This document shows positions 1,036 through 32,268 of a stretch of 64,000 nucleotides of DNA, in pieces. The position numbers and the translations under genes are program-made. Positions within the stretch are counted from its first letter, which is position 1. Each line of letters begins with the position of its first letter. A model generated the notes under the pieces. It saw nothing but the letters and a program-made list of their open reading frames with translations, searched no databases and was not told where the DNA came from. This DNA is from a virus. The DNA lies in the IMG/VR virus record IMGVR_UViG_3300021185_002348, positions 1 through 64,000 of that record; one strand, written 5' to 3'.

Positions 1036-1068
1036 CAACACCTAAGCGGGATGTGTTTAAAAGACCGC
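1036..1068 (+). ncRNA. H-type pseudoknot leader module, copy A
   Basis: Stem 1 pairs AACAC (about 1036-1040) with GTGTT (about 1053-1057). Stem 2 pairs GCGG at 1046-1049, inside the stem-1 loop, with CCGC at 1065-1068 after an A-rich loop TTTAAAAGA. This is the arrangement of an H-type pseudoknot. Two more copies (from about 1553 and 2131) keep both stems with changed bases. It starts right after a CTATCAC site, just past the stop of the upstream gene, and 25 bases before the ATG of the next. A cis-acting RNA acting on translation or mRNA processing is inferred. Confidence 0.6.
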
Positions 1069-1070
1069 AT

Positions 1071-1095
1071 TAATCATCTAAAAAACAGAAAGATG
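1071..1095 (+). promoter_or_regulatory. Early leader repeat, copy 2
   Basis: TAATCATCTAAAAAACAGAA then AGATG matches the leader repeats at 485 and 1595 with few differences and ends at the ATG at 1093. It sits directly 3' of pseudoknot module A and selects this start over the upstream in-frame ATG at 961, which lies inside the preceding gene. Confidence 0.65.
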
Positions 1096-1545
1096 AAATT
1101 ATCTAAGAGCGATATAATCGCACAAGCAAAATTAAAAAGAGCAAACAATTCTTTAGCGAGTCGTAAGACTAACTATAAAAAGAATGCCATCAAAGCAGGT
1201 GTAACGTATGAAGCATATGTACATGACAAGCTAGGCATCACACTTGAAGTATTCGAATCAGTTGAGTACTCCTTACCTGGCAGAGCGAAATCAGGTACTG
1301 CACCTACAAAGGGAACACCTGAATGGGCACTCTACAAACGTATTGCATCACGTAAGACGTATACACGACACCTAATACAACTATCCTGTATTGTCGATGA
1401 AACGTGTGATACATTCGAAACGTTTGTAGATAAGTACACCGATGCAAAATCAGTTGACGAGTTCTTCAGTGATGCATACAATGCGGAACACAAAGGATGC
1501 TACAACTACGGTGCTTACAAGCATCTTGATGGTATCTTAGACTAG
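1093..1545 (+). CDS. ASRK-repeat early protein 1, 150 aa
   Basis: Function unknown, but it clearly belongs to a family with the genes at 2888 and 3882 and, more distantly, 7500. Shared features in order are a basic N-terminus, a first ASRKTNYKK motif (residues about 23-31), a segment with KAGV-x-Y-xx-Y, an aromatic SLP-RAKSG segment in the middle, KGTPE, a second ASRKTY motif (about residue 93), and an acidic C-terminal half. The doubled ASRK motif suggests an internal duplication. The basic motifs could bind DNA or RNA, but this is inference. The start at 1093 follows the leader repeat; the in-frame ATG at 961 would overlap the upstream gene. Confidence 0.75.
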   Translation: MKLSKSDIIAQAKLKRANNSLASRKTNYKKNAIKAGVTYEAYVHDKLGITLEVFESVEYSLPGRAKSGTAPTKGTPEWALYKRIASRKTYTRHLIQLSCIVDETCDTFETFVDKYTDAKSVDEFFSDAYNAEHKGCYNYGAYKHLDGILD

Positions 1546-1552
1546 TCACTAT

Positions 1553-1586
1553 CACACACCTAAGGGACATGTGTATAAAAGGTCCC
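1553..1586 (+). ncRNA. H-type pseudoknot leader module, copy B
   Basis: Stem 1 pairs ACAC (just before CTAAG) with GTGT at about 1571-1574. Stem 2 pairs GGGAC at 1564-1568 with GTCCC at 1582-1586 across the loop ATAAAAG. Compared with copy A the stem-2 bases differ (GCGG/CCGC there) but pairing is kept, which is compensatory change. The module overlaps the CTATCAC site at 1549 and precedes leader repeat 1595-1620. Confidence 0.6.
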
Positions 1587-1594
1587 ATTTTTAT

Positions 1595-1620
1595 TAACCA
1601 TCTAAAAAACAGAACGATGG
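1595..1620 (+). promoter_or_regulatory. Early leader repeat, copy 3 (identical to copy 1)
   Basis: Identical over 26 bases to 485-510, although the two downstream proteins are unrelated. It ends at the ATG at 1617, so that start is chosen over the in-frame ATG at 1569 inside pseudoknot module B. Confidence 0.75.
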
Positions 1621-2117
1621 AAAATTTATTAGGATTATCAATTGTAGCATTATTTGTGCTAAGTATTATCATGATTGCGTTAATTAAAGCCTTATCAAGA
1701 CAGGTATTTAGCAATGCAGAAGATGTCGAATCAATATACCGTGACATAAGACGTAATGAAGATTATGCCTCATCAAGCAGAAAACATATGAGTGCTACAT
1801 CTGAAGACGCATGGCAACAAGTGCTTCTCTTGGAAGATAAGGTCGCCGCACTTGAAATGCTTCTTACAGCATTCAAAGAAAGCAATGATGATGTTATAGA
1901 TAACTTAATCTTACAAGACTTAAAGTTACACGGCGAGATTGAGAATGTAAATAATCAACTCGAGTTTCATTGCGAACGTATTGGCGATGATATGCATGTT
2001 GAAGACATCGATGTGTATGATTGGATTGCAGAACGTGATGCAGAGTTTGCAAATAAATGCAAATGCTCATACAGATATACGCCTGACGGTAAACTCCAGG
2101 ATAGATTTGGAAAATAA
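1617..2117 (+). CDS. Membrane-anchored coiled-coil early protein, 166 aa
   Basis: The first 25 or so residues form one hydrophobic segment rich in Leu, Ile, Val and Phe, consistent with an N-terminal membrane anchor or uncleaved signal. The rest is acidic and predicted helical, with heptad-like spacing in the middle (residues about 60-130), and so may be a coiled coil facing the cytoplasm or periplasm. A short Cys-x-Cys lies near the C-terminus. The protein was not recognised. It lies in the early cassette between pseudoknot modules B and C. A role in changing the host membrane early in infection is possible but unsupported. Confidence 0.7.
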   Translation: MENLLGLSIVALFVLSIIMIALIKALSRQVFSNAEDVESIYRDIRRNEDYASSSRKHMSATSEDAWQQVLLLEDKVAALEMLLTAFKESNDDVIDNLILQDLKLHGEIENVNNQLEFHCERIGDDMHVEDIDVYDWIAERDAEFANKCKCSYRYTPDGKLQDRFGK

Positions 2118-2130
2118 TTGATTACTATCA

Positions 2131-2161
2131 CGCACCTAATGGGGATGTGCCTAAAAGCCCC
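2131..2161 (+). ncRNA. H-type pseudoknot leader module, copy C
   Basis: Stem 1 pairs GCAC (about 2132-2135) with GTGC at about 2147-2150. Stem 2 pairs GGGG at 2141-2144 with CCCC at 2158-2161 across the loop CTAAAAG. Both stems differ from copies A and B yet still pair. It directly follows the CTATCAC site at 2125 and lies 21 bases before the ATG at 2183. Confidence 0.6.
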
Positions 2162-2887: not shown

Positions 2888-3349
2888 ATGAAGACTGTAA
2901 AATTATCCAAAAAACAAATCATTATTAACACGCTAAACGCAACAAAACTGAAAAACAGTTGCGCGAGTCGTAAGACTAACTACAAGAAAGCTGCAAGAAA
3001 AGCGGGTGTAGATTATGCCGACTATGTGAAAGCCAAATGCGATGTTACTATCGCGGTATTCGAAGACTATAACTGGTCGCTACCCGCAAGAGCTAAGTCT
3101 GGCTCAATGCCCGCTAAAGGCACTCCGGAGTACAACGAATACAAAAGTGTAGCAAGTCGTAAGACATACATGAAAGCCGTACTGCAAGCAGCCGAATGCA
3201 TCGACGATAAGTGTACAAATCTAGAATACTTTGTCAAGAAGTACACATCCGCTGCAACAACGCAGGAGTTCTTATCTACAGAATACTGCAAGGCTAACAA
3301 ATCAAGCTACAGTGTACGCGGTTATGAATTCTTAAGCGAATTCCACTAG
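2888..3349 (+). CDS. ASRK-repeat early protein 2, 153 aa
   Basis: A close paralogue of the gene at 1093. Both carry the first ASRKTNYKK motif (here about residue 27), a KAGVDYADYV segment, SLPARAKSG, KGTPEY, and a second ASRKTY motif (about residue 96). The pI looks basic. The DNA around the first motif is also strongly conserved between copies (GCGAGTCGTAAGACTAACTA), indicating recent duplication. It has five to six Cys residues that the first copy mostly lacks. It is followed two bases later by a membrane micropeptide gene. Function unknown. Confidence 0.8.
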   Translation: MKTVKLSKKQIIINTLNATKLKNSCASRKTNYKKAARKAGVDYADYVKAKCDVTIAVFEDYNWSLPARAKSGSMPAKGTPEYNEYKSVASRKTYMKAVLQAAECIDDKCTNLEYFVKKYTSAATTQEFLSTEYCKANKSSYSVRGYEFLSEFH

Positions 3350-3545: not shown

Positions 3546-3881
3546 AATCTGAACACACATTCTTTATTATTGTTGCCGTATAACTCACATTCCGCTATCG
3601 CAGGCGCGTCTCACAGCTGAAATTATGCACTTTTTGATCATCACAGGTAGTTTACTAAGCTATAAAGATAGGTGGGATAATACCACTATAAAAACAAACA
3701 ATCGTAATTTAATCAGATATAAAGCTCACAATAATTTTAAAATACTGTGAAATAAGGATTTTATTATTATTTTAATTATTATATTTATTTATAATTATTA
3801 AAGTACAGTATATCACAGTCTGAGCTTGATAATTGGATAGTTCAATTAGTTATTAACCATTGATTAAAACAAACAGAAATC

Positions 3882-4394
3882 ATGGCTACAATTACAATCA
3901 AAAAATCTTCAATCGAAGAAATCAAGCAAGAGCTTGCAAACAAAAGAGCTGGTAAGAACTTTGCGTCTAGAAAGACCAATACGAAAAAGTTTGCCAAAAA
4001 ACACAATCTTTATTTGCCGTCAGGCGAAAAATCAATTTATGATGACAATATAGATTGGACAGCCGCTATCAAACAGAAGTATGACACTACCTTCGAGGTA
4101 TGGTCGGATATTCATTGGAAGAGTAAGAAAGTAAGTACTCGCAATCTGAAAGATATGACAGACGAAGAGTATAAGTCGTACAAAAATGCGGCCAGTAGAA
4201 AATGCAGATTTAATGCACAATTGAAAATCACGGGTGTAAGTTTAGACGACTTTCTTACTCACATATGTGTTAACGAAGCCAAATTTTTCTCAGACGAATA
4301 TCAAGACGAACATAAAGTTACAAAAGGTAACAAAGTGAGTGTTTACAATCTTGAATATTGGTTAGATACGATCATGGAAATCATGCCTGAATAA
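3882..4394 (+). CDS. ASRK-repeat early protein 3, 170 aa
   Basis: Third member of the ASRK family. It has a first ASRKTNTKKFAKKH motif (residues about 27-40) and a longer middle part than its paralogues. A second ASRK motif (NAASRKCRF, about residue 106) is followed by an acidic C-terminal half with FFSDEYQDEH, matching FFSDAYNAEH in copy 1. The leader AAACAGAAATC precedes the ATG. It lies after a gene-free promoter-like region and before a hairpin with CTATCAC at 4406. Function unknown; the conserved basic motifs suggest nucleic-acid binding. Confidence 0.8.
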   Translation: MATITIKKSSIEEIKQELANKRAGKNFASRKTNTKKFAKKHNLYLPSGEKSIYDDNIDWTAAIKQKYDTTFEVWSDIHWKSKKVSTRNLKDMTDEEYKSYKNAASRKCRFNAQLKITGVSLDDFLTHICVNEAKFFSDEYQDEHKVTKGNKVSVYNLEYWLDTIMEIMPE

Positions 4395-4405
4395 ACACAG
4401 TTTCA

Positions 4406-4450
4406 CTATCACGACTGGGAATAACTCTCAGTCGTGTTTATAAGTCCAAA
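4406..4450 (+). ncRNA. Hairpin leader, divergent relative of the pseudoknot modules
   Basis: CACGACTG pairs with CAGTCGTG over 8 bp with an 11-base loop that begins GGGA; GTGTTTATAAGTCC follows. The 3' part aligns with GTGTTTAAAAGACCGC of module A. The CTATCAC site supplies the first bases of the stem. A short second stem (GGA with TCC) could form, so it may be a fourth, lengthened version of the module. It stands in front of the gene at 4478. Confidence 0.45.
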
Positions 4451-22926: not shown

Positions 22927-25900
22927 TTAATTGTCGTAAGGTACTATTTTTTCTCCCTGTGAACCGCCGAAAGGCACTATTTTATCTGATGGGTCGTAAT
23001 AACTTTCTTCGCTATGTAATAAATTATACAGTCCTTCCGCAAAATTAAACGTTCCTCTATATGGAACGCCCGAAAGAGTCATCGCAGGATCGGCTACTTT
23101 ATTTATAGCTTCTAATGCTTCAACATAATCTGACCAATTTATTTCAATACCTTCATCATTCATGTTTTGTAAAAGACTCGCTTCATCATAAAGTTTTTTA
23201 CCTCCTCTACCAAATGCTTCAACAGCACTAGCCATAGGCACAGCATCAAATCCATAGTTACTGTCTTCAATAAAGGTGTTTAACAGGTAAGTGAATACAT
23301 CACCTGCAATTGCAATACCGTTTGCTGACCCTAAGTAAGTCGCTCTTTTTTGTGCTTTCCATGCCGCTCCGTATTTATCCGATATTTCATCTGGAGTAAA
23401 AGGCATGGCCATACGCATCATTTCATAAAAGTCATATGAAAATTTCGTTTGATCATCTAATTCGCCGTCATCCACATTCATAATGTATTTGTCTTTATTG
23501 TACTTAAACGTTGTGGTTACCGCTTGGAATAGATTAGGCAAGATATAGTTGTATATAAGAAGCTTTTTAGCCGCTTCTTTAGAAGATCCTTTAGATGCAG
23601 AAAGGGCTCTCATAGCAGCTCTAGATTGTCTGTAGTAAGACATAGGTGATGTCTTGTACATAGCAAACATTTTCATATAAGGATTTCTTTGCATTATAGA
23701 TAAATCAGGACTATCCGATGCTTGCTGGGCTAGATTAGTTGCGGACTCAAATCTTTTTTCTGCAAATTTAACGGCTTCTTCAGGGGACTTACCTTCTGCT
23801 AAAGCTTTTTTTCTATTGTGCTCATAAACAGCCCATCCTCCAGCTACAATTGCAAATCTATCACCTATAATAACGGGCTTCATCATTGCGTTTATCAGTT
23901 GTTTCCTAACGGCTTTATTATGACTTGGGATATTTTCAAACTCGGACCCCATTACTTGTCTTACGGCATCGTCAAATTCAAGTCTTGAATAACGTTTTTG
24001 CATGGCAGGTAACTCCATTAATGTATTATATGCGTTTCTCCAATTAGAAATAGCTCCTTCAGGACCCGGGTCTAATAAGCTTGCTGTAGTCTTTACCCAT
24101 TCTGCTGTAGGCATATCACCTGCATAAGCGAGTATTGAAGTGGCTTGTTTAAACATAAGGGAAGGCTTAGCTCCTAAACTACCTACTACATAGTTAGTTC
24201 TAGCTTTAGTCAGAGTTGTTTGCAATCTGTTATATAACTTATTTTTACCTGCTATATCAAGTATGTTTCTGTTTATAACACTGTGCAAGCCCGGAGCAAA
24301 GTCGGTTCTTATTTTTTCTTTTACTTTTTTATTGTTAAATACTTTGTGTAGACTACTAATAGGTTTTTGATAAGCTTTAAAGAACTCCATGTCTTGAACA
24401 AACTTTGTAACCATTACATTAATATCTTGCTTTCTAAGAGGTTGCTTATTAGCAGATTTTTCTTTTAAATGGCTTGATTGCATTTCATTAAATACAATTT
24501 CTGGAGTACTTACATTAATTTCACCTTCATTCACTCCCATCTCAACGTCTTTAGGCGCCGGAGAATAAAATTTACGGTGATTAAGAGGAGCTCCTGTAAT
24601 GTCTATATGGAAATCGTTTAAGTTTAAGTGGCCAGGGAATAACTCACCTGTTGCATAAGTAGGGAAGAATTCATTTACTAAATAGTCCGACCATTGTCTT
24701 AGTTGAGGGTCCACTAAGTTTAAAATAGCTTCACCTTTATTAGTAAGTCCATAATCTGGATTGTCATCAGACTCGTAAGCTTTTTTAACTTCACTATAAA
24801 TAAATTCTTTTCTTTCTATTTCTCTCTCTTTAGATTCCTCAAGCTCCTTCAGCCGACGATCATCAATTATTTGTATTTGTTTTTGAGCTTCTTGCTTGTA
24901 AGTTTCTTTCAAAGCTAATTGCTCTGCTGGTGAGTATTTATATGGCTTTTCAAGAGCGTAATGCAAAGACTCCCATCTCTTTCTAATACTATGCCACCGA
25001 GGCTTAGCCTTAAGTGCATTTTTCTTTTTCTTTTCTTCATTCCGCTTCATAATATAGTCAACTTCCTTTTGAGTATACCGTCCTCTTTTAATTAAATTCT
25101 CCCAAGTATCTAAAGCGTTTTTTACTTTCTCCACCTTTTTTCTTTCTTGAGCCAGAATTTCAGCAACTGCTTTGGTTCGTTTATCTATACCCTCTTCTCT
25201 TTCTTTTTTTGTTGGTTTTTTAATAACTTCTAAAGCTTCTTCAACTGTTCTATATGATTCACCGGCAAACATACCGCCTGTCAATTTTATTTGGAAGTTT
25301 AAAAAGTCTTGGGATTCAGTGAACTCCTTAAATGTTTTATATCTTTCTTTAAGGTTATAAGTCCTTTTCATTATCCCCATTTTTTCTAATGTACGATAAT
25401 TGGTGGCGTCTAAAGTTTTTATATATAAGTTAGCGGCTTCGTTAGGCGTCCATGTTTCATTAGACCCCGCGGTCCCTGTTTCTTCATCTACCCAATCTAC
25501 CTCTTGCTCTTTAGTGTTTTTAAGCTCTATTTGTCTAAGTCTATTCAGTACTCTTCCTTCTTGTCTAGACAAAGGACCTTCAGCTGATAAAGGATTGATA
25601 CTAGTTCTGCTTACGTCACCATCTATAGAATTAATTTCTTTAAGTTTATTAGCTAAAATATTTAATACTGAACGCTTACTTATAAATTCTGTGTTTTGCG
25701 CAGACCTCATATTATCTTGTACGAAATTAACAAGAGGGCTATCAAAAGTACCAGATTCGGCATGGTTTATAGATAAATCTTCTGCTAGCGAATATATATT
25801 TGCGGTACCCCATTGATTAAGCGTACGTAAATTTAGACCGCTATACCACTTATTTTTACCATACTCTGCATCAATCCCAAATAGTCTTGCTAAAAACGGC

Positions 25901-28900
25901 TTACGACCTAAAGCTTTACCTGTACCTTCCATAACATCCAAAGCCATTTGTATGTTTGATAAAGTTTCTTGTTCTTTAGCGTTTTGTATTTCTTTAAATG
26001 TATCTCTACCACGCTTTTCAAGATTAAATAAAGCTTTTTTATGTGTTTCCCAATTTGTAGTAAAATACTCTTGCCCTATTTCAACAGGACCTAATGCGGT
26101 AATCCAATCTCTTACATGTTGTTCGTAAGCGCCTACAGGAGCATCTGGGTTTTCCTGATTAAACTCTTCTTCTTTTCTTGACGGTTCTCTATTAACATCG
26201 TTAAGCCTCCAAATCTCTGCTCTATACTCTAGTAGCTCGGTATACTTTTGCTCTAAATAATTTGCATCATTTTCTTTATGAGCGCGCATTACTCTACCAG
26301 TTTCTTCTAGCTTAATTCTAGTTTTTACATCCCAAACTTTACCTTTTATCATTGAGCCTTTTACTGCTTCAAAAGTGTTTTTGTTCATAAACCTTTCTAG
26401 CATAGTAGTATAGTCGTCTATAGTCTTCACTTTAGAACGGTTTAAAAATAAATCGTTGGCTTTAGTGTTTATGGCTTTATAGTCCTCAGGCTTATTAATA
26501 TCTAATTCAGATATTACTTCACTATCGTATAAACCAGGTGGCTTAAAAAGATCTTTTTGTTTTTCACCTTCAGGCTTAAAATTTAATCTATTTAAAGCTC
26601 TTGATAAAAATCCTTCTTTAGGCGTAACAAACGCATTGTCCATTTGCCTTTGCGCTATTATACCTGCATCCTTCTTCGCATCCTCTCCTATAGCTCTTCC
26701 TTGATTTAAAGATTGAACGGCTCTTGCTTCAACCTCACCATCGAGTCTTTCATATCTTTCAAAACTTTTAACTAAAGGTATAATTACTTCTAGTCTAGCT
26801 TTAGCCTCTTCTAAGTTTAAATCTTTGTTTCTTGTTTCTAACTGTTCACTTATACCATTAAAAAAGTTCTCTTTTCTTTCTTGTGCTTCATTGTAACCTT
26901 CTCTACCTCTTAGTGGCCCTTTATTCTCAGGCACTGGCGTATTATCTTTAACAAATTTATCGTACTCTAAAAAGTCATTAGTGATTTTTATTAATTCAGA
27001 GTCAGATAATCTGTCACGCAAGTACGTAGGGTCCACTTCTCTTACTTTATCTAAAAGTTGTAAAGTTTCATTAACAGCTAAATTTAAAAATTCAGGCATA
27101 AAAGCCTCGTTACCATATGAAATTAATTTATTTGAAACTGATTCAACCATATCTTGGTATTCAACATATAGTTTAAATTGTTCCGCTCCAGACATATCTT
27201 CAAACGTATTCCATTCTTGTCCGCCTTTTTTGTATAAGCTATATTTAAATAGCTTTGTCCTAAGCTCATTCAATCTGCTTGATTGTTCAGCTCCTAAAAT
27301 TTTTGTAATTACTTCTTCAGGTGATAAGTTTGATAGCTCATTAAAAGAATCAAAATTTTCTTTTATGTTTTTGCCAAAAGAATCATTTATATATAAGCCT
27401 TGCATAACGCGCATTGAAGATAGACGGTTTCCTCCTTCTACCGTTGTGCTTTCTTTATGCTGCATATAGTGCTGAACCTCATGAGCAATAATATTCGTAA
27501 TGCTAAGAGCGTCAATAGTATTACTTTTAAATGTATTGGATTTATCTCCACTTAAATCTAAGTGCTGCAATACTCTATTGTAAGTATTATCTGCAGCTAA
27601 AGGCATGCTCCCCTCTTTTCGTCCTTGATTTAAAGCTTCCCAAAGTGTTTCTACATTTGAGCCATCTTTAAAAGCTTTTTTTAGTAAATCTTTACTAAGG
27701 CTTATCTCTACAATTACATTATCTTTACCAGATATTCGATTAAAACCCTCTTCATAAACTTGCGCTTCCTCTAAAAAAACAGGGCTATTCGCATCCTTTG
27801 GATCAGTAAAATTTATTTTAACTTTTACTTCGGATTTAAGCTTGGGATAATATAAAAAAGCGGGGCCATCAAATATTTGAGATAAATCAAACTCCATTGA
27901 AAGTTTTGCCTCAGAGTCTTGTTTATAAGAATCGTATAAAACTTTTGTAGCATTAAAAAGTCCTTTTTTACCTTTTTCTGTTACGTGTAAAGGACCTTCA
28001 TAGCTAACTATTTGTCCAGACCTGCTCATAAAAAAGCCTGTTTTCTGGTGAATAGAAAGACCGCTTTCGCCTTGCTGTCTCATTTGCCGAGCAAGAACCA
28101 AATTATTTAGTTTATTGAATTCCGGCTTGCTTAAGTTTTCTTTATTATTTAATTCAGAAAATATTCTAGATTCATCTATTAAATTAAAATGATCTATATT
28201 GTCTGACATCTCTTCAGGCATTTTTATTGAAGGATCAAATTTTAAAGACCTACCGTTTCTTACGGCTCTATTTATTTTATTAGTAAGACTTGATAAGTCA
28301 GATATATCATTTAAAGTTAATATATGAGGGCTTACATTGTTTTCGCTAAGCATAGATGTAACTAGCTCTCCCATAGGGTTACCAAACACTTTTGAATATG
28401 CATTATATAAAGGCTTTGATATTACCTTTAAAGGACTGTATGAAAGACTACTAGCATTCATTGTTTCCCCAAACCACTGAGCCATAGTTTCGTTCAGAAC
28501 GGTTTTTTTACGGTCTTGTAAGGCCTCAAAATCAGCTTGCGTAAGACTAAGTCTCATTTTTTGCATTTGAGCGTCACTGAAGCCATATTGTTTTAACGCC
28601 CATAAATATTTCTTTTTATACTTTTTGTCAGACATCATCTGCTTCTCAAGACTAGCATAAGATTCTGGAGATACTTTTTGTATTAAGCTTAAAAGAGGAT
28701 GCGCTGATTCATGAGCTAACACTGTACCTAAATCTTTCTTTAAAATATTAGAGCTGTGTGTAACATCTATATGTATAGTATTTTTTGAACCCGAAATAAA
28801 AGGGTTTTTAGAAGCTTGAAAAGACCAGTCTCTAATTCTACGAGTTTCCTGTGAAAATTCCTCTTTTGTTAATACACCTTGGTTAAATAAAGAAATTGCC

Positions 28901-31900
28901 TCTGACCGCATTTCAAGAGCTCTTGTCTTAATAACTCTATTTAAGGTTCCTGGAGTGCTGTGAAGAACGTATCTTGATTGTGCATTTGCGGGCAAAATGT
29001 TATAAAGCTTATTTATTAAATTTAAAGCTCTTACAGTTTTACCATTTTTAGCGCCATCTTTGCTTGATTGTTTTGCTTTTTTAAGCCTGTCACTAATATT
29101 ATTAGTAGATACCTCTATAACATCTCGAGAGCCCCCTGTTGAAGTACCATCGCCATACATTGTTTTTTCGCTAAGGTCTCTATTCTTTTCGTATTCAAAT
29201 AAGTTGTTAGCTTCCTTAACATCGGCTTTCCGCAATTGATTTACTTCAGCATCAGTTAAAGTTCTATCGACTCCATCAGCCCCACGTCTTTTCCAGTATT
29301 GCTTATATTGATTTAATCTATTATTGTATCTAATTCTATGTCTTAAACCATTTGCAAATATTGTTTCTCTAACTACACCATGTCTCTTTAATGCGGTTGC
29401 TTTTCTAAGTTCAGCGTCGTCCTGAGCTGTATATAGGCTATTTACAAAGTTAAGTACATTACCAGTCTCTAGCTCCTTTAGCAGCTCTTCAGCATTTGCA
29501 GGTTCTGCATCATATAGCTGTTTATTAACAGCATTGTATTCATTCAGCAGTCTATTAAAAGCTTGCTTCCAATTTTTGTTTTTACTAACGACTACATTAA
29601 TCATACCAGACATTAAGTCAGAAGCTGCGTTTTCTACTACTCCTAAAGTAGTTTCGCCGTTAGGATTATCAAAAGCTGATTTGTCTACAATTACTTTTTT
29701 AAATATATAATTGTCTACGGTTAAAGAAAATTTATGTACGTCTTGGAGGTTCTCTTTCAGCTCCTTTATTACATCTGCATATATCTCGCCCCCTTTAGGT
29801 GTAGAGTTTTCAAAGTAGTTTATAGCTTCGATTAGCTTGTCTTTTCTAATAGTAAAGTCTTTTTTATACTGATCTACAATTTGATCAATACCGCTTATAC
29901 CATACTCTCCGGTGGTTGGATTATACGTTTTTTTACGTCTTACTATGTTTCCTAGACTGTAAGGATTGTAAGCCGCTGAAGTTGACAATATACCATTCAT
30001 TGCCAAGTTAAATAATAATCTACGGCCCAAACTGTCTTTCCATTCGTTCCCTTCTCCTTCCCCTACAAAACTAGGTATGAGTTCGTCAAACTTTTCTTTA
30101 AAAGTATCATCATATGCTAAAAGCTCCCAAGCCGATTCAGTTATGCCCGCCATCTCCATAGACGCTGTGGCACCTACAGCTTGGTTAAGTTTAGGGTTAG
30201 TGAATTTTTTAAATACTGCAGCAAATTCTTTTTTAGGTCTCCATTTCCCTAATAAGTTAATAGGCAGTCTATGCCCTATACCAAAACCAAAACCTTGACC
30301 AGTCTGACCGCCAATAGTTTTAAATGTAAGTTCTTCTAGTCCACCCTCAATAGTTAAAATACCTATCTTATCAATTAGCTTTGTACCTTCCACAAATTTT
30401 CTACCTGCTCCTACTTTTGAGCTATAATAAGCACCTAATAGACCGTTTTTAGCCATATAAGCCAATCCTCTTTGTATTTTGGGTACTTTTTTTAAAGCCT
30501 TGATACTAGCTAAGGCCGTAGCAAGACGACCACCGCCTAAAAATATAGGGTTAATTAAACCTCTTGAAGCAAAAAGCTTAACGCCTAATGCGGTTACGTC
30601 ACCTAAAAATTCTCCTACTTCTTCACCACCACTAAGTTGGGTGTTGCTAACTTCTTCATTACTCAATGGTATAGAGTATTGATATAATAAGTCTAAAGCA
30701 GCTTTTTCTTTATACTCATTGTCTTGGAATATAACGGACGTAGTAAAGTTATCAAGCCCCATACCTCTTACAAAACCTTTTCCAAAGTGTTGAAAAGCAT
30801 GAGTTTCTGAAGCTTCCTTACTTTCTAAGTATCTATGATTTAGTAAATAGTAATGGTCAAGTGCTTCTTGTTTCGCCTTTACTCTTAATAATTTTAAACC
30901 TAGTTTGTTACGCAAAGGAGCATATTGATCGGGAGCCTGCATAGATGGTACTCCTCCCATTGTAATAGGCTGATTTGCAGCTGACTGTGAATCTTGCTTT
31001 GGTATTTTATCAATTTCAGCTTGTATAGTATTTACAAGGGTTTGATTTTTAAGCCATGCATTTTTTAAAGTATGAACAGTTTCAGGATTCTCTAGGTCGT
31101 AGAGGTATTCAAGCTCATTTTGAAAATTAGATGCTAAATCTAAATAGCTTTGTATTTGGCCTTCCGGAACTGTATATTCACCATCCTCATCTTTTAAATA
31201 CCCTCCAAATTGCAATTCACCTCTTAGTCTTTCGACGTTTTCTACAGCTTCTGCATACGCTTTGCTAGTCTTACCGTTATTATTCTTTTCTAGCTCCTCT
31301 AACGCTATCGTAGCTTTTTCTTGTGCTTCGTATAAGTTATATAATTCAGGACTGTTAGATTGGTAGTTTTCTAATTTTTTATTTAAAGTATTGGCATACA
31401 AATTACCGTAAGCTACATTTTTAGCGTAATGTTGTCTGGCCGCTTCCGCTTCTTCTTCTTCCATCCCGTAGCCAGGAGCGGTAACGTTGTAATTACCAAA
31501 CCTCATATTTTCAGTAGGTATTTCAACATTGTTTTGCTCAAGTTCTAAAGCAGCACTAAAAGCATTCCCCGCTTCATACTCAGAACGTTTATACGCCAAG
31601 TCGCTTTTATATTGTTGTCTGTATGCGTTTCTTAAAGCTAATTTATCGTCGTCGGTGTAAACTATAGAGTTATATTCACCCTTTCGCATACTAGCAACAA
31701 TTTCCGAATTAATCTGCTCGTTAACTTTTTTATCGATAAGATTATCTAAATGCTCGTCGCCCATTTTGTATCCACCGTCGAGCCATTCCTCTACGTTGTC
31801 GTCGTTTATAGCAACTTCATCGTCTGGGTTTAAAAAGTCTATACCTAAAAAGGTTTGATTATCATAAGTATAATTATAGTTTATTTGCCCGTTTTCATTA

Positions 31901-32268
31901 ATACCTACTTGGTCATCTCCGCCTAGCTCTTCGTCTAAAAAATTATATATAGCAGATGCACTCTCTTTATCTTCTAGCCTTTCAGTAACTTTTGTTTTTT
32001 CACTAGTTTCTTCAGCGGCTTTTGAGTTCTGCTTAACTACGTCTCCTTCTTCTCTTTTTAGTCTTTCTATATAACCTCTAACGTGCTTAGGGTCGGAGCT
32101 CATAGTTTGTTTGTACTTTTCAACTTTATCTTTATACTTTGGATCAATAATTAAATCGGCGTCCTCTGTGTCGGATAATTCAAAATTATCTACGGCGTTA
32201 CTATCAACAGCCATTGAATCTGGTATAAAGCTGTTGTTATTTTGCATTTCTTCTTCGGGAGTGCTCAT
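22927..32268 (-). CDS. Giant multidomain (polyvalent-like) virion protein, 3113 aa
   Basis: One uninterrupted frame of 9.3 kb. Two zinc-peptidase-type HExxH motifs are visible: LAHESAHPLLSL (about residue 1185) and IIAHEVQHYMQHKE (about 1595), the latter followed by GGN as in large polyvalent protein-associated domains. Charged coiled-coil-like stretches occupy about 1700-2500. The C-terminal region (about 2690-2900, KPSLMFKQATS, DRFAIVAGGWAVYEHNRKKALAEG, FAMYKTSPMSYYRQSR) resembles conserved C-terminal regions of giant phage proteins. No polymerase motif was recognised. It probably rides in the virion and is injected, like T7 gp16 or N4 vRNAP in role. Late position supports this. Confidence 0.75.
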   Translation of the reverse strand: MSTPEEEMQNNNSFIPDSMAVDSNAVDNFELSDTEDADLIIDPKYKDKVEKYKQTMSSDPKHVRGYIERLKREEGDVVKQNSKAAEETSEKTKVTERLEDKESASAIYNFLDEELGGDDQVGINENGQINYNYTYDNQTFLGIDFLNPDDEVAINDDNVEEWLDGGYKMGDEHLDNLIDKKVNEQINSEIVASMRKGEYNSIVYTDDDKLALRNAYRQQYKSDLAYKRSEYEAGNAFSAALELEQNNVEIPTENMRFGNYNVTAPGYGMEEEEAEAARQHYAKNVAYGNLYANTLNKKLENYQSNSPELYNLYEAQEKATIALEELEKNNNGKTSKAYAEAVENVERLRGELQFGGYLKDEDGEYTVPEGQIQSYLDLASNFQNELEYLYDLENPETVHTLKNAWLKNQTLVNTIQAEIDKIPKQDSQSAANQPITMGGVPSMQAPDQYAPLRNKLGLKLLRVKAKQEALDHYYLLNHRYLESKEASETHAFQHFGKGFVRGMGLDNFTTSVIFQDNEYKEKAALDLLYQYSIPLSNEEVSNTQLSGGEEVGEFLGDVTALGVKLFASRGLINPIFLGGGRLATALASIKALKKVPKIQRGLAYMAKNGLLGAYYSSKVGAGRKFVEGTKLIDKIGILTIEGGLEELTFKTIGGQTGQGFGFGIGHRLPINLLGKWRPKKEFAAVFKKFTNPKLNQAVGATASMEMAGITESAWELLAYDDTFKEKFDELIPSFVGEGEGNEWKDSLGRRLLFNLAMNGILSTSAAYNPYSLGNIVRRKKTYNPTTGEYGISGIDQIVDQYKKDFTIRKDKLIEAINYFENSTPKGGEIYADVIKELKENLQDVHKFSLTVDNYIFKKVIVDKSAFDNPNGETTLGVVENAASDLMSGMINVVVSKNKNWKQAFNRLLNEYNAVNKQLYDAEPANAEELLKELETGNVLNFVNSLYTAQDDAELRKATALKRHGVVRETIFANGLRHRIRYNNRLNQYKQYWKRRGADGVDRTLTDAEVNQLRKADVKEANNLFEYEKNRDLSEKTMYGDGTSTGGSRDVIEVSTNNISDRLKKAKQSSKDGAKNGKTVRALNLINKLYNILPANAQSRYVLHSTPGTLNRVIKTRALEMRSEAISLFNQGVLTKEEFSQETRRIRDWSFQASKNPFISGSKNTIHIDVTHSSNILKKDLGTVLAHESAHPLLSLIQKVSPESYASLEKQMMSDKKYKKKYLWALKQYGFSDAQMQKMRLSLTQADFEALQDRKKTVLNETMAQWFGETMNASSLSYSPLKVISKPLYNAYSKVFGNPMGELVTSMLSENNVSPHILTLNDISDLSSLTNKINRAVRNGRSLKFDPSIKMPEEMSDNIDHFNLIDESRIFSELNNKENLSKPEFNKLNNLVLARQMRQQGESGLSIHQKTGFFMSRSGQIVSYEGPLHVTEKGKKGLFNATKVLYDSYKQDSEAKLSMEFDLSQIFDGPAFLYYPKLKSEVKVKINFTDPKDANSPVFLEEAQVYEEGFNRISGKDNVIVEISLSKDLLKKAFKDGSNVETLWEALNQGRKEGSMPLAADNTYNRVLQHLDLSGDKSNTFKSNTIDALSITNIIAHEVQHYMQHKESTTVEGGNRLSSMRVMQGLYINDSFGKNIKENFDSFNELSNLSPEEVITKILGAEQSSRLNELRTKLFKYSLYKKGGQEWNTFEDMSGAEQFKLYVEYQDMVESVSNKLISYGNEAFMPEFLNLAVNETLQLLDKVREVDPTYLRDRLSDSELIKITNDFLEYDKFVKDNTPVPENKGPLRGREGYNEAQERKENFFNGISEQLETRNKDLNLEEAKARLEVIIPLVKSFERYERLDGEVEARAVQSLNQGRAIGEDAKKDAGIIAQRQMDNAFVTPKEGFLSRALNRLNFKPEGEKQKDLFKPPGLYDSEVISELDINKPEDYKAINTKANDLFLNRSKVKTIDDYTTMLERFMNKNTFEAVKGSMIKGKVWDVKTRIKLEETGRVMRAHKENDANYLEQKYTELLEYRAEIWRLNDVNREPSRKEEEFNQENPDAPVGAYEQHVRDWITALGPVEIGQEYFTTNWETHKKALFNLEKRGRDTFKEIQNAKEQETLSNIQMALDVMEGTGKALGRKPFLARLFGIDAEYGKNKWYSGLNLRTLNQWGTANIYSLAEDLSINHAESGTFDSPLVNFVQDNMRSAQNTEFISKRSVLNILANKLKEINSIDGDVSRTSINPLSAEGPLSRQEGRVLNRLRQIELKNTKEQEVDWVDEETGTAGSNETWTPNEAANLYIKTLDATNYRTLEKMGIMKRTYNLKERYKTFKEFTESQDFLNFQIKLTGGMFAGESYRTVEEALEVIKKPTKKEREEGIDKRTKAVAEILAQERKKVEKVKNALDTWENLIKRGRYTQKEVDYIMKRNEEKKKKNALKAKPRWHSIRKRWESLHYALEKPYKYSPAEQLALKETYKQEAQKQIQIIDDRRLKELEESKEREIERKEFIYSEVKKAYESDDNPDYGLTNKGEAILNLVDPQLRQWSDYLVNEFFPTYATGELFPGHLNLNDFHIDITGAPLNHRKFYSPAPKDVEMGVNEGEINVSTPEIVFNEMQSSHLKEKSANKQPLRKQDINVMVTKFVQDMEFFKAYQKPISSLHKVFNNKKVKEKIRTDFAPGLHSVINRNILDIAGKNKLYNRLQTTLTKARTNYVVGSLGAKPSLMFKQATSILAYAGDMPTAEWVKTTASLLDPGPEGAISNWRNAYNTLMELPAMQKRYSRLEFDDAVRQVMGSEFENIPSHNKAVRKQLINAMMKPVIIGDRFAIVAGGWAVYEHNRKKALAEGKSPEEAVKFAEKRFESATNLAQQASDSPDLSIMQRNPYMKMFAMYKTSPMSYYRQSRAAMRALSASKGSSKEAAKKLLIYNYILPNLFQAVTTTFKYNKDKYIMNVDDGELDDQTKFSYDFYEMMRMAMPFTPDEISDKYGAAWKAQKRATYLGSANGIAIAGDVFTYLLNTFIEDSNYGFDAVPMASAVEAFGRGGKKLYDEASLLQNMNDEGIEINWSDYVEALEAINKVADPAMTLSGVPYRGTFNFAEGLYNLLHSEESYYDPSDKIVPFGGSQGEKIVPYDN

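Follow-up and report, generated by a model that had tools for sequence, protein, structure and literature searches.

The three repeated elements near the start of the window (the whole stretch of DNA analysed, covering 64,000 of the 67,917 bases in the record of an uncultivated virus) are, as judged by sequence comparison, a divergent subgroup of a widespread, phage-specific family of very small H-type RNA pseudoknots. The family may act in cis as a general RNA boundary, a role that is put forward tentatively. The window terminase is approximately 40-46% identical to those of Flavobacterium phages (elemo group) and of an environmental Caudoviricetes record, and from this likeness the virus is taken to be a tailed phage; its host is probably a marine or freshwater member of the Bacteroidota. 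The late region contains a single reading frame of 3,113 aa (22927-32268) that resembles a very large virion protein.

Structure of the three window copies

Each copy consists of two stems (S1 and S2) and three loops (L1-L3), arranged as follows.

1037-1068, + strand: pseudoknot copy 1; S1 AACAC (1037-1041) with GTGTT (1053-1057); S2 GCGG (1046-1049) with CCGC (1065-1068); L1 CTAA (1042-1045), L2 GAT, L3 TAAAAGA
1556-1586, + strand: pseudoknot copy 2; S1 ACAC (1556-1559) with GTGT (1571-1574); S2 GGGAC (1564-1568) with GTCCC (1582-1586); L1 CTAA (1560-1563), L2 AT, L3 ATAAAAG
2132-2161, + strand: pseudoknot copy 3; S1 GCAC (2132-2135) with GTGC (2147-2150); S2 GGGG (2141-2144) with CCCC (2158-2161); L1 CTAAT (2136-2140), L2 AT, L3 CTAAAAG

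All three copies, which are spaced 520-580 nt apart, have the H-type topology S1-L1-S2-L2-S1'-L3-S2' with both stems paired. The sequences, read directly at all three places, confirm an earlier sequence-only reading of this DNA, in which three copies were described whose crossed stems pair and change together. A gapless alignment of the core shows C-ACC-TAA, ATGTG and TAAAAG to be invariant; the columns that vary are both sides of S2 and the outer pair of S1. The frame CACCTAA..GTG..TAAAAG occurs three times in the window compared with 0.00 times in shuffled sequence. S2 is 4-5 bp long in every window copy, whereas only one of 99 unrelated sites with the same loop frame (the other matches in IMG/VR and GTDB genomes, counting Watson-Crick pairs) forms an S2 of 4 bp at the same position. 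Nested secondary-structure folding cannot detect a pseudoknot and accordingly gave no signal at any of the copies (z -0.4 to 0.8); the evidence for the window copies is therefore comparative.

Identification of the family

The early proteins of the window have no homologues in the collections searched, and phages with related terminases are represented by late-region fragments only; relatives were therefore sought by DNA pattern. A search of IMG/VR with the window frame gave one locus that also pairs, on a 35.6-kb phage contig (L042), where the copy reads CAC-CT-AAGGC-AT-GTG-GGTAAAAG-GCCTT and is preceded by a stop codon and followed by the ATG of the downstream gene. A looser pattern found a second copy in the same record, with an S1 of TGAC/GTCG, 12 nt past a stop codon, with a terminator-like hairpin 3' of it. 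The pattern derived from these two copies, with S1 left unspecified, matched six contigs, and S1 forms in all six. Window-frame matches in bacterial genomes were set aside, none of the 83 being convincing, as were weak blastn matches in Salmonella, Escherichia and Klebsiella phages, which lie within or antisense to coding genes and are attributed to chance.

A wider pattern matched at least 120 stretches, and 84 matches were examined. Among these listed matches S1 reaches at least 3 bp in 63 and at least 4 bp in 49. In the remaining 21 S1 has 1-2 bp; most of these fall within coding sequence and seem to be chance matches, although two are sites in tRNA arrays (L178 and L204), the former of which can pair through a bulged S1. 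Altogether the pattern searches that started from the window gave at least about 70 distinct phage loci with the element. It is 27-32 nt long, with two stems of 3-6 bp and the consensus NNAC-CU-NGGC-AW-GUNN-nnAAAAG-GCCN'. Across 2.26 Mb of retrieved DNA, a descriptor that left both stems free gave 58 unique matches; the reversed sequence yielded none.

Covariation of the stems

Covariation was assessed in 48 distinct 27-mers chosen regardless of pairing, in which three pairs are not fully fixed by the search pattern. Pair 2-15 forms in 45 of the 48 sequences, pair 1-16 in 34 and the outer S2 pair (7-27) in 43, against permutation means of 27.4, 20.1 and 33.1, respectively; values as high were reached in none of 20,000 permutations. 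S1 covaries as C-G, G-C, A-U, U-A and G-U, and the outer S2 pair likewise.

In an alignment of 49 sequences 94.1% of cells are paired, compared with 82.9% after shuffling and 16.6-46.9% when the partners are slid; kinship among the aligned sequences inflates such figures, yet the slid controls retain this kinship and fall sharply. The same alignment has 43 cells changed on both sides (13.1 when shuffled) and a covariation score of 0.322 (0.115 when shuffled), a score equalled in none of 500 shuffles. S2 is mostly NGGC/GCCN' because the search pattern imposed GGC/GCC. Other forms are found in Lactobacillus phage LL-H (GGT/GCC), CV244 (AGC/GCT) and Latilactobacillus phage TMW 1.1393 P1 (GGAT/GTCT) and, by visual reading of the sequence, in Page-type phages (TGAG/CTCA), crAss-like phages (TAGGCA/TGCCTA) and Lentibacter phage ICBM2 (TGAGCA/TGCTCA).

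A covariance model built from non-window members only, in which S1 was entered as pairs and all other positions as plain sequence, gives the window copies the top three ranks in the 64 kb: copy 2 at 1556-1585 (E 0.00022), copy 1 at 1038-1067 (E 0.034) and copy 3 at 2132-2161 (E 0.10). The copies have the conserved loops of the family (L1 starting CU, L2 A[U/A], L3 ending AAAAG) and an S1 closed by AC/GU. They depart from the main group, with its 2-nt L1 and S2 of NGGC/GCCN', in having an L1 of CTAA(T) and an S2 of GCGG, GGGAC or GGGG. The sequence-only reading had staked its proposal on covariation beyond the window copies, and real covariation is present in homologues in both stems. Its H-type pseudoknot with an A-rich loop is likewise supported, and the element is probably a new cis-acting RNA element, as it proposed.

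Surroundings of the window copies

Each window copy is situated 10-14 nt 3' of a stop codon and 21-30 nt 5' of an ATG. The neighbouring features are listed below.

1020-1022, + strand: TAA that ends the preceding gene (507-1022); copy 1 follows 14 nt later
1093-1545, + strand: gene 3' of copy 1, 150 aa; ATG 24 nt past S2', TAG stop 10 nt before copy 2
1617-2117, + strand: gene 3' of copy 2, 166 aa; ATG 30 nt past S2', TAA stop 14 nt before copy 3
2183-2386, + strand: gene 3' of copy 3, 67 aa; ATG 21 nt past S2'
1030-1036, 1549-1555 and 2125-2131, + strand: CTATCAC directly 5' of the pseudoknots, part of a separate repeated motif
1027, 1546, 3536, 3592, 4403, 5177 and 5791 (+ strand), 2610 and 3522 (- strand): sites of the 10-mer YCRCTATCRC
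4410-4436, + strand: hairpin CACGACTGGGA..TCTCAGTCGTG, nested fold z = -3.35; past a stop codon and ahead of an ATG

The stop codon before and the ATG after each copy had been described previously together with a common leader; the codons stand, but the leader CATCTAAAAAACAG, common to copies 1 and 2 and to the gene at 507, is shared incompletely by copy 3. Three unrelated genes are preceded by one and the same leader, CATCTAAAAAACAGAA(C/A)GATG, at 483-507, 1072-1093 and 1596-1616. Readthrough of the stop codons was rejected, as the frame ends 16 codons past copy 1 and 5 codons past copy 2.

No Pfam or PHROG match was obtained for the product of gene 1093-1545 or for the other window genes flanking the pseudoknots, nor did these genes match a toxin family. 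Gene 1093-1545 is one of three encoding paralogous small early proteins (with 2888-3349 and 3882-4394; 49% and about 28% identical), which carry a repeated 'ASRKTNYKK' segment and have no Pfam, PHROG or phage-record relatives. Extremely A+T-rich tracts at 190-400, 2670-2810 and 3720-3800, ahead of early transcription units, are possible promoters or an origin.

CTATCAC was considered as part of the element and rejected: it is absent from the family outside the window, and a pattern including it gave five chance matches in coding regions. The 10-mer YCRCTATCRC, which occurs nine times in the first 6 kb (0.04 times in shuffles), mostly between genes and on both strands, is probably a DNA operator or regulator site and not a part of the RNA element. 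The hairpin at 4410-4436 has CTATCAC just 5' of it, as do the pseudoknots. A relative with a longer stem had been suggested at 4406, but this hairpin is of the ordinary nested type, falls outside the pseudoknot family and is not among the covariance-model matches in the window.

Distribution among phages

The element is carried by Lactobacillus phages mv4, phiJB and LL-H, by CV244 and by Latilactobacillus phage TMW 1.1393 P1, and variants of it are probably carried by Bacillus Page-type and Lentibacter phages. In the named Lactobacillus and Latilactobacillus phages, CV244 and the Page-type phages, whose copies are a more divergent form, it follows a structural gene (portal, minor-head or other) and precedes a gene that, where annotated, is scaffold/capsid; in the Lactobacillus phages the pair is minor-head and scaffold/capsid. 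In an environmental podovirus the element likewise falls between two genes, in IMG/VR loci it precedes dUTPase genes, and in Lentibacter phage ICBM2 it separates ribonucleotide reductase from glutaredoxin. The annotated glutaredoxin start of ICBM2 (L313, 483-530) is upstream of the pseudoknot and for this reason is probably too early.

Other copies are placed differently. In T4-like phages the element is found 55-57 nt past the stop codon of an Hsp20 gene and the downstream gene varies (L142, L157, L170, L183, L186, L190, L223, L230 and L239). In Burzaovirus crAss-like phages it occupies the spacer of a permuted tmRNA (Rfam RF04321; L143 474-830, L144 473-829), 3 nt before the 5' acceptor strand. 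Element-like sequences stand just 5' of tRNA-Arg(acg) at L178 (7505-7527, 5 nt before the tRNA) and L204 (10782-10804), in arrays of 31 and 28 tRNA genes; S1 would be bulged in the former, GTG[T]AC/GTCAC, and is weak in the latter. Some copies (L042 near 4244, and L141) have a hairpin immediately 3' of them in place of a start codon. Nearby start codons are often 20-31 nt past the pseudoknot and nearby stop codons often 3-14 nt before it. The description of the element as belonging to phage early leaders was thus too narrow, given the copies in head-gene operons, before dUTPase, past Hsp20, before tRNA and in the permuted-tmRNA spacer.

Clustering of the flanking proteins gave 39 groups downstream and 35 upstream. 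With a loose pattern most phage genomes have one copy, the L042 record two and the window's record three. The same pattern gave two matches in 1,153 bacterial genomes (399 Bacillota, 369 gammaproteobacterial and 385 alphaproteobacterial) and four for the reversed control, which is not above background. The fold, its spread through unrelated phages, its sense-strand position between genes and its independence of the flanking genes are established by these comparisons.

Proposed role and alternatives

The element is independent of the flanking gene, precedes mRNAs and untranslated RNAs alike, and has constant loops in phages of distant hosts; its target is therefore suggested to be a universal RNA machine, which should be a ribonuclease, RNA polymerase or the ribosome. 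Because the target seems universal and the marks of a riboswitch are missing, a boundary element that protects or processes the downstream RNA is the favoured reading, although we regard it as a serious possibility rather than a probable one. The pseudoknot would act in cis whatever gene flanks it, its compact fold, with the A-rich loop in the minor groove of S1, marking the 5' edge of a downstream mRNA, tRNA or tmRNA piece. It would either stop a 5'-end-dependent or 5'-to-3' ribonuclease (RNase J-like) or serve as a processing site, so that the downstream RNA could accumulate independently of upstream sequence while the ribosome-binding site, approximately 20-30 nt 3' of the pseudoknot, would remain free. 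The hosts of the carriers would be expected to possess RNase J. Among the functions raised by the sequence-only reading, mRNA processing is thus the one preferred. Two points weigh against a boundary at the 5' side: the copies followed by hairpins and the Hsp20 group fit a role in the 3'-UTR equally well, and known exonuclease-blocking RNAs are larger and ring-shaped (PMC12412911).

The strongest alternative, which is nonetheless unlikely, is a site on the mRNA where a protein or the ribosome binds and thereby adjusts translation of the following gene, as at the leader pseudoknot of T4 gene 32, or an insulator between a terminating ribosome and the next start. The spacing of many copies, 3-14 nt past stops and often 20-31 nt before starts, corresponds to the edge of a ribosome footprint, and in the window the H-type pseudoknot is followed by an A-rich leader. 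However, copies also stand before tRNA and in the tmRNA spacer, where there is no translation, and before hairpins with no start nearby, and with unrelated genes on either side no single autoregulated protein fits.

An action on RNA polymerase by processive antitermination or pausing, as with HK022 put or EAR, is quite unlikely. It would agree with the gene independence, with about one copy per genome at the boundaries of gene blocks and with the three copies heading the early operon of the window, but the element is much smaller than put or EAR, is found inside head operons and tRNA arrays, away from promoters, and is followed directly by a hairpin in two copies.

Very unlikely is a self-cleaving ribozyme with its cleavage sites between genes or 5' of tRNAs. 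The phage theta ribozymes demonstrate that phages use ribozymes at such places (PMC10879173), and the present element is similarly phage-specific, gene-independent and adjacent to tRNA and tmRNA; no bases are conserved outside its stems, however, and the nested double pseudoknot of HDV-like ribozymes is absent.

Ligand control had also been considered in the earlier reading, and a small-molecule riboswitch aptamer is less likely again. The element shares the H-type topology and size class of preQ1-I and has invariant loop bases (C-U, A-W and AAAAG), but it has no expression platform, stands clear of the ribosome-binding site, gave no Rfam match and is flanked not by a recurrent metabolic gene but by dozens of unrelated genes (the 39 downstream and 35 upstream clusters), with copies before tRNA and tmRNA.

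That the element is a decoy of a host defence RNase, mimicking type III antitoxin pseudoknots such as ToxI, is scarcely probable. The size and H-type fold are similar, and escape mutants of phiTE have been reported to mimic ToxI (PMC3475682); against this, antitoxins are tandem repeats, whereas the phage pseudoknots are single, sense and intergenic, and the same loops are kept in phages of very different hosts. Finally, chance or a DNA-level repeat with no RNA structure, to which only three window copies and a leader shared by copies 1 and 2 might have pointed, retains practically no weight, being refuted by the covariation, with compensatory changes seen in the crossing stems of about 50 sequences, and by the absence of matches in the reversed controls.

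Novelty and significance

The H-type pseudoknot is a known kind of fold; a family with this consensus and phage-wide distribution appears to be undescribed. Scans of Rfam 15 with gathering and E-value thresholds gave no match for the window and its relatives, the crAss-like loci matching tmRNA models only. No description of the family was found among the open-access papers searched, an incomplete set, so that an earlier publication is possible.

Small structured RNAs common to phages of unrelated hosts are rare. An element that is not tied to a gene, and is not above background in the sampled host genomes, suggests a problem common to phages that is solved by RNA, for which mRNA decay, processing and polymerase control are candidates. 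At 27 nt it would be placed among the smallest conserved natural RNA pseudoknots. Its presence in well-studied laboratory phages (LL-H, mv4 and Page-type) allows an immediate test of its function. Should it prove to block or direct nucleases, it would offer a ready means of engineering the stability of bacterial mRNA.

Comparison with known systems

The leader pseudoknot of gene 32 in phages T4 and T2 has a short L1 and a long S2. Like the window copies, it is an H-type pseudoknot that precedes a phage gene and has an A/U-rich leader 3' of it; however, it is confined to gene 32, whereas the present family is gene-independent and has the loops CU, AW and AAAAG. No single-stranded DNA-binding protein gene was recognized downstream of the new elements, the window genes having no Pfam or PHROG match and those elsewhere being diverse.

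The preQ1-I riboswitch is likewise an H-type pseudoknot of approximately 30 nt with an A-rich third loop. The phage pseudoknots differ in their conserved bases and have neither a preQ1 gene context nor sequestration of the ribosome-binding site; the flanking proteins are diverse, with no sign of control of queuosine or preQ1 genes, and the Rfam model of preQ1-I was matched by neither the window nor its relatives.

The STAXI motif (RF01728) is also a repeated pseudoknot near genes of phages or mobile elements. The units of STAXI are arranged in tandem, often carry UUCG tetraloops and lie near DNA-manipulating genes (PMC2864571); the window copies are 520-580 nt apart and gave no Rfam match. Similarly, the type III antitoxins (ToxI, CptI and AntiQ) are small H-type pseudoknots, with an A-rich loop in CptI, and are arranged as tandem repeats beside a toxin gene (PMC5086642), an arrangement not seen for the phage elements, which are single intergenic copies, with no toxin family match at the window genes.

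The element is not part of a complete tmRNA gene: ARAGORN finds no tmRNA in the window, and the pseudoknot of the crAss-like phages sits in the spacer of the permuted tmRNA and is not a tmRNA pseudoknot. The theta (minimal HDV-like) ribozymes of gut phages are phage-specific structured RNAs beside tRNA genes, as are some of the present elements. They have a nested double pseudoknot with a catalytic C and are located at tRNA 3' ends (PMC10879173), whereas the phage pseudoknot is a single H-type fold on the 5' side.

In proposed function the element resembles the exoribonuclease-resistant RNAs (xrRNAs) of RNA viruses, compact pseudoknots that block 5'-to-3' decay and set a new 5' end. A plant-virus xrRNA is 59 nt long and comprises P1 and P2 together with an L2B hairpin and a pseudoknot of 9 bp (PMC12412911), compared with 27-32 nt and two stems of 3-6 bp in the phage element. 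A wider proposal, which is doubtful at present, is that these minimal (27-nt) pseudoknots form an undescribed class used phage-wide as portable nuclease barriers or 5'-end definers. They would be the counterpart of the viral xrRNAs in DNA phages whose hosts are Bacillota, Bacteroidota, alphaproteobacteria and probably also cyanobacteria.
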